The notes under the pieces: model-generated
Database searches by the model: none
The model's input: the letters and a program-made list of their open reading frames with translations, nothing else
What the model was told of the DNA's origin: nothing
Program-made: the position numbers and the translations under genes
Shown: piece by piece, positions 7,318 to 12,418 of the stretch
Numbering within the stretch: position 1 is the stretch's first letter
How the letters are laid out: each line of letters starts with the position of its first letter
Assembly (NCBI GenBank): GCA_900554305.1
Contig: USGV01000011.1
Span: 1 to 45,784, forward strand
Direction: 5' to 3'
Length of the DNA stretch: 45,784 nucleotides
Source: an uncultured Mycoplasmatota bacterium
GTDB taxonomy: Bacteria; Bacillota_I; Bacilli_A; RF39; UBA660

Positions 7318-7425
7318 TTGTATATATTTGTATACTTTGCATATATTATAAGTGAGGAAGGTTCACTGTTACGTGTGAAGATCCTCTGTAAATAGATATA
7401 GGAGCCAAAAGGCTCCTTTTTTATT
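7318..7425 (+). ncRNA. Candidate small structured RNA with its own promoter and terminator
   Basis: The plus strand has a possible promoter (TTGTAT at 7318-7323, 18 bp, TATATT at 7342-7347). It is followed by a nested hairpin: GAGGA 7354-7358 with TCCTC 7382-7386, enclosing TTCAC 7362-7366 with GTGAA 7375-7379. A strong intrinsic terminator follows: GGAGCC 7401-7406, AAAA, GGCTCC 7411-7416, then T6. The predicted transcript is about 70 nt. No plus-strand gene lies just downstream and I match it to no known RNA family. The terminator is firm; the rest is inference. Confidence 0.4.
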
Positions 7426-7906
7426 TTAATAATTCATCTCGTAATTTCATCCACAATTTACCTAAGTGATTTTCTCCAGTTCTATCTTTTCCCCATCCCC
7501 AGAAATTATCTTTAGGTGAATCTTCAACAATTATATAGTCTTTCGTTTGTAATAGTTTTTGTTTGACATATGGGTTTTGCTGTAATTTTTTTCTTAAAAG
7601 TTCTTCCATAATTGTTAATTTTACTTCTTGCCAATCACTTCTTACTTTATCTTTATTAGCAAAGGCTATTTTTTGAGCTTCATGAGCTGAATGACTTTTT
7701 TTTATTTCTTCCGCTATTTCTGGGGCTGATTTCAAAAATTTAGCGGTCTGATAGGCCTCTTCTAGTGATGCATATAAATATCCATCCCATTCCACTTTAA
7801 AAGAACTGAAGTTATCTAGGCAATAAAATTCTCTAGGATAAAATCCTATTACATCATTCATTTTTTCACTTAACCAAGTATCACGATATTGTTCTAATTT
7901 AATCAT
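7421..7906 (-). CDS. NADAR family protein (YbiA-like N-glycosidase)
   Basis: 161 residues from ATG 7906, with AAAGGAG 6 nt upstream; a longer open frame runs back into the preceding gene. Family signs are FYPREFYCLDNFSSFKV near the start, YASLEEAYQTAKF, and DSPKDNFWGWGKDRTGENHLGKLWMKLR at the C-terminus. NADAR proteins cleave N-glycosidic bonds: YbiA acts on reactive riboflavin-pathway intermediates, and relatives paired with DarT remove ADP-ribose from DNA. No DarT is visible here. It is the last gene of the radical SAM operon, 11 nt after the zinc-ribbon gene. Whether it functionally belongs to that system is unknown. Confidence 0.85.
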   Translation of the reverse strand: MIKLEQYRDTWLSEKMNDVIGFYPREFYCLDNFSSFKVEWDGYLYASLEEAYQTAKFLKSAPEIAEEIKKSHSAHEAQKIAFANKDKVRSDWQEVKLTIMEELLRKKLQQNPYVKQKLLQTKDYIIVEDSPKDNFWGWGKDRTGENHLGKLWMKLRDELLK

Positions 7907-7917
7907 AAAATTCTCCT

Positions 7918-8937
7918 TTATACTTTCTCTTCTAAAATCCATTCTTGCAAATATTTTATTTCCGAATGGCAATATTCGCACTTTCCCTTTGTAACATCTA
8001 TTGATGCTCCACAATTTGCACATCTAATAATATTTTCTTTAGTTCCTAAATTTAATAAGGTATTTTTATTTTGTTGCATAGTGTATGTCTGAGTTATTAT
8101 CTTAGATTTTAATTTTTTGTTTTCATAAGTAACTATCCTTAAATCTGCCGTTACATCAACATATAATACTCCATTTACTTCATAGTCTTTAAAATTGGTA
8201 TAATCTAAAATATCATAGTCTATTATATTTTCCTTACTATAATATTTTTTCCTTATCTCATAATTTAGGTTATTAAAAAATGTTTTTTTGTTAATTTTAG
8301 TTCTTTGCCAAAATTCTATTTGTTTTTTATTTTCTTTATCTTTAAATTTCTTTATAGGAGATAAGATTATATATGCATCTGCAATATAGAAAAAATAATA
8401 TAAAATTAGAGAAAGAATAATACCATATATAAATATTTTTATAATATCATAGTTATTAAAAGTCCTTGAAGTAAGTTTTATAAAAATAAAGCTTATAATA
8501 ATGCTAATAATAATATCTACAATTAGTGTTATTACTCTATAGATATTACTCTTTAGTACTCTATCATAATGATATTTACTACCTAAGTCTTTCTCACTGT
8601 AATCCATATTATAATAAGTTTTACAATAAGGACAACCATCAATAAAATCCTTTAGTGGAGATTTCATTCCACAATTAGGACATTCGTATTCTTCATTTAT
8701 ATTATTATCCATAATATATGTGTACTCTATTCTTGAATCAAATAACTTTTCTTTATGTGCTAATTTATTATCTATATAATATTCTTTTTGGCAGCGGATT
8801 CCTCGCTCTATATTATCATTAACGGAATCATTAGTATTTCTTTCTAAAATTTTGTTTCCAACAATATATTTCGTTCTTATATTGATTCCATATCTTTTTA
8901 ATTTTTCTTTTTGATATGTTTCTGATATTAAGGCCAT
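7918..8937 (-). CDS. Membrane protein with two zinc ribbons
   Basis: 339 residues. An internal zinc ribbon (CPNCGMKSPLKDFIDGCPYC, ~86-105) precedes two membrane helices (~133-155 and ~165-190). A soluble domain of about 110 residues follows, then a C-terminal ribbon (CANCG ... CEYCHSEI). The soluble part (TFFNNLNYEIRKKYYSKE through VDVTADLRIVTYE) loosely recalls TIM44-like domains of bacterial zinc-ribbon membrane proteins; I am not sure of this. It starts 6 nt after the poly-Asn protein, with GAGG overlapping that gene's stop, so translation is coupled. Function is unknown; placement suggests a membrane component of the radical SAM system. Confidence 0.7.
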   Translation of the reverse strand: MALISETYQKEKLKRYGINIRTKYIVGNKILERNTNDSVNDNIERGIRCQKEYYIDNKLAHKEKLFDSRIEYTYIMDNNINEEYECPNCGMKSPLKDFIDGCPYCKTYYNMDYSEKDLGSKYHYDRVLKSNIYRVITLIVDIIISIIISFIFIKLTSRTFNNYDIIKIFIYGIILSLILYYFFYIADAYIILSPIKKFKDKENKKQIEFWQRTKINKKTFFNNLNYEIRKKYYSKENIIDYDILDYTNFKDYEVNGVLYVDVTADLRIVTYENKKLKSKIITQTYTMQQNKNTLLNLGTKENIIRCANCGASIDVTKGKCEYCHSEIKYLQEWILEEKV

Positions 8938-8943
8938 GTTCCT

Positions 8944-9300
8944 CTAGTTATTATTGTTATTGTTGTTATTATTGTTATTATTATTGTTGGAAGATGAACC
9001 ACCGCTATAACTATAACTAGATGACGGTGTATAATGTGGAATCACACGTAAATAGTTTTCCTTCATAGTAAATCCATCAATTGAGGAATTAATACTTTTA
9101 GCAGCAATTACTGCTGTGACTGTAGTTCCAAGACATAAAGAAACTTTATCTGTCCCTCCAACGACAGTACCCTCTGGGTTGGAAGACAAGAAGTCATATA
9201 TTTGATTTAATTCTTCCATAGAAAAGTCGTAATAATTAGTTAAATCAATGCATCTTTTTTTTCTAATTAATTCTTCATATGTTTCTGGTTCTTTATCCAT
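8944..9300 (-). CDS. 118-residue protein with Asn14 tail; candidate radical SAM substrate
   Basis: The start ATG overlaps the radical SAM gene's stop by 8 nt (ATGGATAA). The first ~45 residues are charged and helix-prone (EELIRKKRCIDLTNYYDF, MEELNQIYDFLSSNPEG). The middle is small-residue rich (VSLCLGTTVTAVIAAKS). A Ser/Tyr/Gly linker (PSSSYSYSGGSSS) leads to exactly 14 asparagines at the C-terminus. There is no signal peptide. The leader-like front, low-complexity tail and overlap with a SPASM enzyme fit a ribosomally made, post-translationally modified peptide precursor. No known precursor family is recognised, and an accessory-protein role remains possible. Confidence 0.6.
   Translation of the reverse strand: MDKEPETYEELIRKKRCIDLTNYYDFSMEELNQIYDFLSSNPEGTVVGGTDKVSLCLGTTVTAVIAAKSINSSIDGFTMKENYLRVIPHYTPSSSYSYSGGSSSNNNNNNNNNNNNNN
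8947..8988 (-). repeat. In-frame AAY trinucleotide repeat (14 Asn codons)
   Basis: Fourteen consecutive asparagine codons end the gene just before TAG. Eight are AAT and six are AAC, in irregular order. Mixed codons suggest that the protein sequence is maintained, not that the tract is a freshly slipped microsatellite. Confidence 0.9.
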
Positions 9301-11044
9301 TTTGATTCTCCTTATCTAAATAATAAAACTCTATATTTTGAAATGGTAGATTTATTGCTTGTATATGGTAATAGGCATTATTTTTTTGTTTCATATAATG
9401 ATAATCTCTTAATGCTGTTGTTGTAAAAAATATGTTATTAGCATTTGTAAGAGATAAGTATTTTGAAAATTTCTTTAGCCAACTACTAATATCGTAAGAG
9501 TAGTATCCTTCTTTGTCACTTGCTATTTCATCTAATACACCTTTATAAACCAATTCTGTTGCAATATGTCTTTGTTTTTCCCTATTCTCATCTCCGTAAG
9601 TCACTAAATTACCACTTAAAAGCATAATATATAGTGCATTATTTTCTGGATATTCACACTCTGCACTTATTAACTCTTTTTTCATATAAATTATTACTTT
9701 ATTCTCTGGTGTTAAATATATAAAATCCCTGTAGGATTTTTTTATTTGGGATGCTAATTGGTATTCTTTTTCATTCACTTTTAAAATAAAACTATTTTCG
9801 TCATATATATATTTTAACTTTTGATCTTTTTCAATTATATCTTCTAGAGATGGATAACTTTCTGTAGATTTTGTTGGTCTAAAATTCTCTTTATTTTCTA
9901 TTCTCATTTTTGTTATATATTCATAGACAAATTCTTCATTGTTTATGTCTTTTGGATAATTTCTATCTTTGTATAATTCTTGTTGTAGTTTGCATGTATA
10001 ACTTTTGCTACTGTTATAAATATTTTTTACAAATGGGCACCCCGTTTTGCACAAGTATAAATATCCACAGTTTTTACAATCCTCATTAAACGGTAGTTTA
10101 TTATGATTTATAAATATTTTATTAGATGCCGTTTTTAATATTTCTTCTACAGTATTTTTATATATATTACCATAATAATAATCTTTTTGTTTCTGTCCTC
10201 TTACGCATGAGTAGATATCTCCGTTTCTTTCTAATAAAAAGAACTTTTCTCCACAGTTATTACAATTAGTACAATATTCTGGTCCGAACTCATTAAACCA
10301 AGCTCCATTCACTCCGCTGTCTAAATTTGTTCCATCAAATTCTTGATGCATTCGTTTATAGAAATTCACTTGTTCTTCTTCTGTCATTGGATGTAATAAT
10401 CCATTTGAATTGTAAGAAAAACCTATCATAAAATTAAAATCATTCATATCTAAACATGTATTTTTGTCTAGGAACTTGATATCTTTTATAATTTCTTCGA
10501 TATGTTGGTAATGTTCTTTAAAGATTGTTGACGATACTTTCTTTTTATTTGGTATATCTTTTAGTAGTTCTATATTTTCCAGTATTTTATCCAGTGTTTT
10601 TCGGTTCCCTTTTGTTACTCTATATTCGTTATGAAGGGAAAATGGTAAGTCTAGACTCCCAGATATGGATACATTAAATTCTTTTATTGTATCTATGTGT
10701 TTTTTTAAATCATATAAGTTGGTTTTGATATGGGGACTACCTACTTTGAAGCCGGCATCTGTAATAAGTTGCTTGTTTTTTTGATAATACTGACTAATAT
10801 ACTCAATGATATCATGAAAATCTTGCTTACTTAAAGTGGTTACTTCTCCTCCGTGCAAAGATATATTAAATGGTATAACATTCGATTCCTTTAGTTTATT
10901 AATGGTGTATTCTAGAGTCCCTAACGTTGTATATTTTGTATATTCCTCTTTTGTATTATCTTCTAAATAGCAATATTTGCATTCCATGTTACAAGCCATG
11001 GTTGGGACATACAACAAATGTATATATTTATACTCTTCCTTCAC
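9293..11044 (-). CDS. Radical SAM/SPASM domain enzyme, probable peptide maturase
   Basis: 583 residues from GTG 11044, chosen for the GGGGG site 7 nt upstream; an alternative GTG at 11074 would add 10 residues. The radical SAM cluster motif is CNMECKYC (C18, C22, C25), with the GGE motif in SLHGGEVTT. A SPASM region with auxiliary-cluster cysteines spans ~258-351 (CTNCNNC, YSC, CKNCGYLYLCKTGC, TCKL). About 220 residues of unassigned C-terminal extension follow. SPASM enzymes commonly modify ribosomal peptides. The overlap with the Asn-tailed protein gene points to that as substrate; the reaction cannot be predicted. Confidence 0.85.
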   Translation of the reverse strand: MKEEYKYIHLLYVPTMACNMECKYCYLEDNTKEEYTKYTTLGTLEYTINKLKESNVIPFNISLHGGEVTTLSKQDFHDIIEYISQYYQKNKQLITDAGFKVGSPHIKTNLYDLKKHIDTIKEFNVSISGSLDLPFSLHNEYRVTKGNRKTLDKILENIELLKDIPNKKKVSSTIFKEHYQHIEEIIKDIKFLDKNTCLDMNDFNFMIGFSYNSNGLLHPMTEEEQVNFYKRMHQEFDGTNLDSGVNGAWFNEFGPEYCTNCNNCGEKFFLLERNGDIYSCVRGQKQKDYYYGNIYKNTVEEILKTASNKIFINHNKLPFNEDCKNCGYLYLCKTGCPFVKNIYNSSKSYTCKLQQELYKDRNYPKDINNEEFVYEYITKMRIENKENFRPTKSTESYPSLEDIIEKDQKLKYIYDENSFILKVNEKEYQLASQIKKSYRDFIYLTPENKVIIYMKKELISAECEYPENNALYIMLLSGNLVTYGDENREKQRHIATELVYKGVLDEIASDKEGYYSYDISSWLKKFSKYLSLTNANNIFFTTTALRDYHYMKQKNNAYYHIQAINLPFQNIEFYYLDKENQNG

Positions 11045-11055
11045 TACTATTCCCC

Positions 11056-12366
11056 CTAATAATAATTGTTCCACGTATTTCCTGTATCACTATATTCATC
11101 ATAGTAATATATTGATGTAGGACTATTTTTGAAAGCTCTTGAATTTATGTATGTCTGTTTTGGCACTCTTATTGATAAAAGACTAGAGCATTCTCTAAAT
11201 GCTGATGAGCCAATTTCTTCAAGATTACTATTTTCTGTTATATTTACTTCTGATAATCGAGAAGCTCCATAAAAGGCATGTCCACCTATTCTAGTAACTG
11301 AATCTGGTATATCTATTGATATTAGTGAACTACATTCTTCAAAGGTATTTCCTCTAATTTCTTGTAGTTTTTTAGATAGCTCAATATTTTCTAGTGAATA
11401 TGCATTATAGAAAGTTTCTCCTCCCATATATGTTAAAGTATCTGGTAATTTAACTGACCTAAGTGAGGAACAATTATAAAATGCACTTCCCCCAAGATAT
11501 TCTAAGCTATCAGGAATGTTTATCTTTGTTAAACTAATATCATTTTTGAAGGCCTTTCCTCTAATCTCTGTAATACTATTAGGTAAGTTTACCTCTTCTA
11601 AAAATGGCATATTGGCAAATACATTTCCACGAATGCTTACAATTTCTTCGCCCTTATATGTTTCTGGTATATTCACCGTTTTAAAATTAGTTAGACCGAA
11701 TGTATAAAATCTAACTCCATAACCATTATCCATCTTTTCATAAAATGTAATTGGTTTAGCAAATATAATTAGTGGCAATATTATTGCTGCTACAATACCT
11801 ACTATAAATATTGGTTTTGTTTTGTTTGGAACAAATGTTGTTTGCACATTCATTATAATATTAGTTATCTTTTCTGATGGACGTTCTTGAATTTGTTTTT
11901 TTAAGTACTTTAACATATTATAATTTCTTGTGTATTTAAATAAAATTATTAATAAAACTAAACCTATCAAGTATGTTAGTAATGGAAAATGAAAGAAAAT
12001 TAGTATTATATATATAAACAATAACAACACAAATAAAATGTTTAATATTTGTTTTCTTTTTAATAGGGATGCAGGTATTACTTTGCTATTTTTATCTATT
12101 TGAAGTTTTGATAATTGTCTATTAATAAATTCTTCTAATAATTGTGATTCAGTTAGATTGTACATAGAATCAAAATTAGCTTTAGTAACGTTTTTTTTCT
12201 GGATAGGTGGATCTACTATTTCAGTATTTTGTTTTGAAGGGTTGCATGGTTGACCGCAATTTCCACAGAATTTGTCGGTTACTTTAATATTTCCTCCACA
12301 ATTTTTACATTTTAGATTTGTATCGGTTGTTGATTGATTGTTTACTGCAGACTGCTGGTTTATCAT
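11056..12366 (-). CDS. Zinc-ribbon membrane protein with BspA-type leucine-rich repeats
   Basis: 436 residues. An N-terminal zinc ribbon (CKNCGGNIKVTDKFCGNCG, ~20-38) is followed by a polar linker, two adjacent membrane helices (~107-145) and a third (~187-205). About seven LRR_5/BspA repeats of ~23 residues (IPDSLEYLGGSAFYNCSSL-type) then run to ~425, ending in TWNNYY. Three helices would place the ribbon inside and the repeats outside the cell. It is the first gene of the radical SAM operon, behind an extended -10 promoter. BspA-type repeats often bind surface or host ligands; the role here is unknown. Confidence 0.75.
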   Translation of the reverse strand: MINQQSAVNNQSTTDTNLKCKNCGGNIKVTDKFCGNCGQPCNPSKQNTEIVDPPIQKKNVTKANFDSMYNLTESQLLEEFINRQLSKLQIDKNSKVIPASLLKRKQILNILFVLLLFIYIILIFFHFPLLTYLIGLVLLIILFKYTRNYNMLKYLKKQIQERPSEKITNIIMNVQTTFVPNKTKPIFIVGIVAAIILPLIIFAKPITFYEKMDNGYGVRFYTFGLTNFKTVNIPETYKGEEIVSIRGNVFANMPFLEEVNLPNSITEIRGKAFKNDISLTKINIPDSLEYLGGSAFYNCSSLRSVKLPDTLTYMGGETFYNAYSLENIELSKKLQEIRGNTFEECSSLISIDIPDSVTRIGGHAFYGASRLSEVNITENSNLEEIGSSAFRECSSLLSIRVPKQTYINSRAFKNSPTSIYYYDEYSDTGNTWNNYY

Positions 12367-12409: not shown

Positions 12410-12418
12410 ATTATAGCA
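12410..12418 (-). promoter_or_regulatory. Extended -10 promoter of the radical SAM operon
   Basis: The minus strand reads TGCTATAAT about 45 nt upstream of the first start codon. No good -35 box is seen in the A/T-rich flank, which is usual for extended -10 promoters. It is the only clear promoter before the five-gene operon. Confidence 0.6.

Follow-up and report, generated by a model that had tools for sequence, protein, structure and literature searches.

Which protein does a radical S-adenosylmethionine (SAM)/SPASM enzyme act on when its gene runs directly into that of a small protein ending in 14 asparagines? The question is raised by a gene cluster on contig USGV01000011.1 (assembly GCA_900554305.1) of an uncultured Mycoplasmatota bacterium, whose 45,784 nucleotides are called the window here. 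Radical SAM/SPASM enzymes are a main source of new peptide chemistry and are usually found through short peptide precursors. A preliminary description had reported five minus-strand genes in the window and named the small protein as the substrate; all five were found at 12366-7421, in the order leucine-rich repeat (LRR) membrane protein, radical SAM enzyme, 118-residue Asn-tailed protein, 339-residue zinc-ribbon-like protein and NADAR protein. The genes for the enzyme and the small protein form a near-invariant pair, and the probability that the enzyme binds the Asn tail and alters its Asn residues by radical chemistry is put at about 0.62.

The pairing was examined by using the enzyme to scan species genomes; 80 of 93 loci, with enzymes of 50-75% identity, were kept, and all counts of genome loci rest on these. 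At 67 of the 80, a complete protein ending in 5-20 Asn (median 13) was found by script directly after the enzyme. Among the remaining 13, 12 contigs stop inside the small gene, 10 of them having reached Asn, and one stops with the enzyme, so that the small protein is at least partly present at 79 of the 80. No enzyme with a readable neighbouring gene lacked the Asn tail among the 80 loci, and the enzyme of 50% identity (L075) keeps it. For the order to which one host (G001) belongs, 241 genomes were scanned: 12 matched the enzyme profile and 13 the small-protein profile, the 12 being shared; the 13th small-protein match lies at a contig start, where the enzyme C-terminus could be read by eye before the gene, which raises the co-occurrence to 13/13. 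Neither an enzyme without the small protein nor a small protein without the enzyme was found in the 80 loci and the 241 genomes, and the recurrent pairing across loci supports the proposal of the preliminary description that the Asn-tailed protein is the partner and probable substrate of the enzyme. Fisher tests on co-occurrence, computed on related genomes, gave very small p-values. In adjacency and conservation, the arrangement resembles that of ribosomally synthesized and post-translationally modified peptides with a radical SAM maturase, a candidate precursor with a conserved C-terminal region standing beside the enzyme. According to record labels, the cassette occurs in Bacillota, Bacteroidota and one actinomycete, and the complete Lachnospiraceae bacterium GAM79 genome (L023) encodes a homologue of the enzyme; its distribution is patchy, since a class-wide sample contained the enzyme in only 1 of 247 genomes. 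Ten contigs (L008, L014, L027, L032, L035, L037, L045, L050, L052 and L079) end at or within the stretch of Asn codons, as if it broke assemblies, and the small gene may therefore often be missed in fragmented genomes.

The 118-residue protein (8944..9300, minus strand) ends, as had been claimed, in exactly 14 Asn (8947..8988, minus strand), which are encoded by mixed AAT and AAC codons and form the sole run of six or more Asn among the stop-bounded frames of the window. AlphaFold2 predicted a folded N-terminal domain of two helices and five strands (9025..9300, minus strand) with a predicted local distance difference test score of 95-97 for residues 11-90, and no structure for the tail. Conservation within the protein peaks in the tail: across an alignment of 49 small proteins, the commonest residue had a mean share of 0.95 in the Asn columns 105-113, compared with 0.55 in residues 1-40 and 0.39 in residues 41-90. 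No family matched the protein over cut-off in Pfam or NCBIfam, and none did in PHROGs at E 0.001. The final tail residue in the 67 complete proteins was R (28), N (15), H (8), G (8), S (4) or A (4), and it tracks the enzyme tree with 17 changes, compared with 35.8 when labels were shuffled; such a fit would also be expected from plain descent.

The longest open frame of the enzyme begins at 11074 (593 residues); the most likely start is the GTG at 11044-11042, which is preceded by GGGGGA and gives a protein of 583 residues (9293..11044, minus strand). Homology searches used the reading 9293-11041, with the start codon excluded, and residue numbers count its Lys as 1. Scores were over cut-off for the radical SAM domain (PF04055, 44 bits against 29.5) and for SPASM (TIGR04085, 42.2 bits against 27). 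The CxxxCxxC cluster motif, C17/C21/C24 (10970..10993, minus strand), was invariant in 26 of 26 aligned sequences, four of them from phage, and the SPASM region C257-C350 (9992..10273, minus strand) contains eight invariant Cys (C257, C263, C279, C322, C325, C331, C335 and C350) that align to eight Cys of the anaerobic sulfatase maturase anSMEcpe. Judged from these motifs, the enzyme belongs to the SPASM type with two predicted auxiliary clusters. The score for anaerobic sulfatase maturases was well under its cut-off (TIGR03942, 90.7 against 349.45), and the NCBIfam models for darobactin, dynobactin, ranthipeptide, GrrM, CXXX-repeat and other named maturases were far under theirs, among the 25 matches listed of 40. 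No PqqD-like recognition element was matched by Pfam in the scan of the enzyme, in which the C-terminal part was not searched alone. This part, of about 208 residues (9296..9919, minus strand), has no Pfam match over cut-off and is barely tested by the solved structures used for comparison; it is conserved between bacteria and phage, with YGxExRxKxxH, TTxxxR, HYxKxxxNxxYH and LPF as invariant alignment columns. Structural matches to the enzyme were headed by peptide- and protein-modifying enzymes. Full-length homology, C-terminal part included, spans bacteria and phage, and the window enzyme matched PHROG 1802 over profile positions 49-554 of 556 (E 2.2e-42).

The phage homologues provided a second setting for the enzyme. 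A full-length homologue, with 35% identity over 98% of the query, was found in a Campylobacter coli plasmid record that contains a Mu-like prophage; it lies in the tail module, where the order is fibre gene, 211-residue gene and enzyme. The fibre ends in STNNNNY, as it does in the isolated phage CAM-P21, and the fibres of viral-contig relatives end in ATNNNNY, SSNNNNY, TGNNF, MGNNF, SGNNF, MGNNS or CNNNNN; the IMG/VR contigs carry no host name and are termed Campylobacter-type from their likeness to named records. In all 14 distinct enzyme-bearing prophage or phage records the fibre ends in 2-5 Asn followed by at most one residue, and none of 27 complete related fibres from loci without the enzyme ends in an Asn tail. 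The control consisted of prophages sharing the fibre N-terminal domain and comprised 38 rows, nine with the enzyme (all Asn-tailed), 27 without it and two (L127 and L128) that were dropped with fibres cut by the contig end. The 14 enzyme-bearing records are the nine control rows, L083, L088, L090, L091 and CAM-P21 (L157), with duplicate contigs excluded. Because L137 ends before the enzyme position and L134 soon after the enzyme start position, the absence of the enzyme in these two rests on the missing 211-residue gene. Grouped by eye, the fibre C-termini form about eight types with the enzyme and 11 without it; the statistical test on fibre types predates the addition of CAM-P21. Eight annotated records without the enzyme were examined, and the gene after the fibre encodes DUF4376 in L151, L152, L154 and L155 (by name or test) and is an unnamed gene of similar size in the other four. 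In a published comparison of such prophages, isolates are noted to differ in the last third, at the C-terminal end, of the fibre protein cje0231 (PMC2323383). The Campylobacter prophage records with accession numbers EF6946xx were represented by two of 12.

A scan of viral contigs with the window enzyme gave no relative; with an alignment (A2) as the query it gave 12 loci, adding only L099 and L101 to the ten phage-type loci already known. A third protein search returned, among the 120 matches listed of 312, near-identical proteins, of which the named ones were from Campylobacter. On this comparison of sequences, the Asn-tailed protein linked with the phage branch of the enzyme is a different one, namely the tail fibre. 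In the enzyme-bearing records examined, the fibre and enzyme genes are separated by the gene for the 211-residue protein (phrog_10241; L001:7351-7986 and relatives), which was absent from the enzyme-less records examined; the protein is perhaps a fibre chaperone or a recognition partner.

In the mechanism proposed here, the enzyme would admit the exposed tail to its active site and alter several Asn residues while the carrier fold stays intact. The C-terminal part shared by bacterial and phage enzymes may hold the tail, and the folded N-terminal domain, or the phage fibre, would remain attached as the carrier of the altered tail. The favoured reaction would be an oxidation, with two hydrogens removed per event to give a cross-link or a desaturation at side-chain carbons. 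In bacteria, the LRR membrane protein might then receive or display the tail product at the cell surface, and a phage fibre would display the altered tail on the virion. That the tail is the substrate is, on the comparative evidence, very probable. The broader proposal, that one enzyme family rewrites C-terminal Asn tails on folded proteins in two settings, an LRR-linked carrier in bacteria and fibre tips in phage, stands at even odds. The weakest steps are the chemistry, for which oxidation is a tentative choice that could well be wrong, and the surface-binding role, which is somewhat more doubtful still.

Several alternatives were weighed against this mechanism. PoyD-type enzymes epimerise Asn-rich proteusins, and the window enzyme could likewise be an epimerase that makes D-Asn in the tail and renders it protease-resistant or helical. 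This is unlikely: a conserved Cys acting as hydrogen donor is a trait of PoyD-type epimerases, and all 11 invariant Cys of the enzyme sit in cluster motifs in the 26-sequence alignment and the anSMEcpe alignment, leaving no spare invariant Cys beyond the cluster ligands, so that oxidation is favoured over cysteine-dependent epimerisation. It is also improbable that the Asn run is a recognition handle only and that Ser, Thr or Cys of the linker is oxidised as in anaerobic sulfatase maturation. Among solved enzymes anSMEcpe is the closest, the small-protein alignment shows almost no variation at Ser103 and Gly101, and phage fibres carry Ser, Thr or Cys within a few residues before the Asn; however, Asp277, the catalytic residue of anSME, is aligned with Val in bacterial enzymes and with His in phage ones, and the conservation of nine Asn columns roughly equals that of the best Ser column, which a mere handle would not require.

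A distinctly improbable reading is that the tail works unmodified, as a sticky or assembly tail, and that the enzyme acts on another nearby product or a small molecule. Poly-Asn is known to self-assemble, and the chemistry of the tail is a prediction only; but the enzyme and an Asn-ended product are the visible common content of the bacterial and phage loci, related fibres from enzyme-less loci lack the tail (0/27), and the top structural matches are peptide- or protein-modifying enzymes. Low-complexity coincidence, in which slippage in AT-rich DNA would generate the Asn runs and recent common descent would explain the pairing, is hardly credible. Most loci are indeed AT-rich, with a median guanine-plus-cytosine (G+C) content of 29%, but the tails use both Asn codons (AAT 511 and AAC 388 across loci), which argues against DNA slippage; the tail is present at a Slackia locus of 59% G+C and retained up to 64.5%, is kept with enzymes down to 50% identity, and has a separate phage case. 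The mixed codons, the persistence at high G+C and the conservation of the tail over the domain point to selection at the level of the protein and not of the DNA.

Some observations weigh against tail modification by the enzyme or against the role given to its partners. The loci are related by descent, so that the p-values overstate independence, and most are metagenome-assembled contigs. No report of modification of the tail was found. Two of the 14 phage enzymes are broken, L101/L131 being split in two and L090 shifted near its end, and their fibres keep GNNF or GNNS. Fibre tip, enzyme and 211-residue gene may swap as one cassette, in which case linkage alone could join them, and the phage motif can be as short as two Asn. 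Ser, Thr or Cys lies close before the Asn in the fibres, and the linkers before the bacterial tails are Ser-rich, so that the modification could fall on one of these residues instead. The LRR protein is absent at six of 79 testable loci (L050, L059, L060, L063, L074 and L075), and no LRR counterpart was seen at annotated phage loci.

The remaining features of the cluster are as follows, all on the minus strand. The tight spacing described earlier was borne out, with gaps of 11 nt (LRR to enzyme, taking the GTG start at 11044), 6 nt and 11 nt, and the overlap between the enzyme and the 118-residue gene is 8 nt (9293-9300). The extended -10 promoter to which the whole cluster had been assigned is represented by an element, TGCTATAAT, read from the sequence at 12410..12418, 43 nt before the first gene; its being the sole promoter is plausible rather than shown, because promoter-like matches in the region (40) were not enriched over shuffles (39.1). 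A terminator-like hairpin follows the last gene at 7400..7417, with a T-run that is clear on the plus strand only. Families over the Pfam cut-off among the window proteins were LRR_5, Radical_SAM, SPASM and NADAR. The gene downstream of the cluster, identified by eye, resembles peptide release factor 2 and has an in-frame TGA at 7135-7133 (minus strand) within CTTTGAC, the context of the classical programmed frameshift.

The LRR protein (436 residues, 11056..12366) has BspA-type LRR_5 repeats in its C-terminal part (Pfam E 1.6e-56), a weak N-terminal zinc ribbon, and hydrophobic segments at 103-147 and 182-210 by hydropathy. The 339-residue protein (7918..8937), probably an accessory, has two zinc-ribbon-like Cys clusters and hydrophobic segments at about 130-160 and 163-195. 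Both had been described as zinc-ribbon membrane proteins that might anchor, display or export the tailed protein; the membrane segments were recovered, and the zinc ribbons of both scored under the Pfam cut-offs. An LRR homologue was found upstream of the enzyme by profile at 71 of 81 loci and, under translation table 25, at L030 and L031, giving 73 of 79 testable loci when L017 and L047, which start too near the contig end, are set aside. L030:6520-10119 and L031:6527-10101, both from uncultured bacteria, read UGA as Gly: their LRR, enzyme and Asn-protein genes are open only under table 25, the SR1/Gracilibacteria code, and are thus recoded together, and of the 16 in-frame TGA codons in the enzyme, 15 fall where relatives most often have Gly. 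Their enzymes nest among Bacillota-labelled rows in the tree, and the loci represent either a transferred and recoded cassette or an unexpected lineage using this code. In L050, L059 and L060, labelled Bacteroidales, a nucleotidyltransferase-like gene (MKPTLVVLAAGMGSRYGGLKQ..., family assigned by eye) replaces the LRR gene, lying no more than about 15 nt upstream of the enzyme.

A zinc-ribbon membrane protein follows the enzyme and small gene at 46 of 67 testable loci, leaving aside 14 loci whose sequence extends no more than 608 bases past the enzyme; this second zinc-ribbon protein was not seen at annotated phage loci. The NADAR protein (7421..7906; PF08719, E 9.9e-29), for which a helper role had been considered, occurs at one of 81 loci, the window alone; that role is not supported, and the protein is probably a passenger. 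Neighbours were clustered from frames of at least 60 residues in flanks of up to 8 kb, often shorter, and only the LRR, enzyme, Asn-protein and zinc-ribbon clusters recurred in more than 10 of the 81 loci, with no recurring protease or exporter among them.

Compared with known systems, the window enzyme differs from anSMEcpe (PDB 4k36-4k39) in an extra C-terminal part of about 200 residues and in the replacement of the aligned Asp277 described above. PHROG 1802, annotated in phage as a radical SAM domain-containing protein, matches it over its full length and is a family without a stated substrate; the window copy, however, belongs to a bacterial operon that has an Asn-tailed protein of its own, and not to a tail module. 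Proteusins with PoyD (the polytheonamide system) are similar in that a folded leader-like domain precedes a C-terminal region rich in Asn and in having a radical SAM partner, but the small protein described here has no Pfam match over cut-off and its enzyme is of the SPASM type with no spare invariant Cys. The radical SAM enzymes TvgB and TigE, like the window enzyme as predicted here, are encoded next to a precursor with a repetitive C-terminal stretch that undergoes multiple modifications. TigE (PDB 8vpo), which acts on repeated motifs, was among the structural matches to the enzyme. TvgB acts on TVGG repeats with a change of -2 Da at each event, a precedent for repeated modification by a single enzyme of this kind, and its cluster includes an oxidase and peptidase/transporter genes; no NNN string occurs in the text consulted (PMC9062424). 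The window system differs from that of TvgB in its Asn run on a folded protein, its LRR membrane partner and the lack of a recurring transporter.

Literature searches found no description of an enzyme/Asn-tail system within their coverage, which left out most subscription journals and preprints. The apparent target, a pure Asn run on a folded protein, would be a very simple substrate for finding new chemistry, and because enzyme and tail are jointly present or absent in the material examined, the tail sequence may predict modification. If the proposal is true, a virion protein that contacts the host would be among the targets of radical SAM chemistry, the maturation of protein tails would form a new class, and an oxygen-sensitive enzyme would be required to mature some phage tail fibres. 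Radical SAM maturation is itself known; what would be new here is the type of substrate, an Asn tail, and the phage branch.

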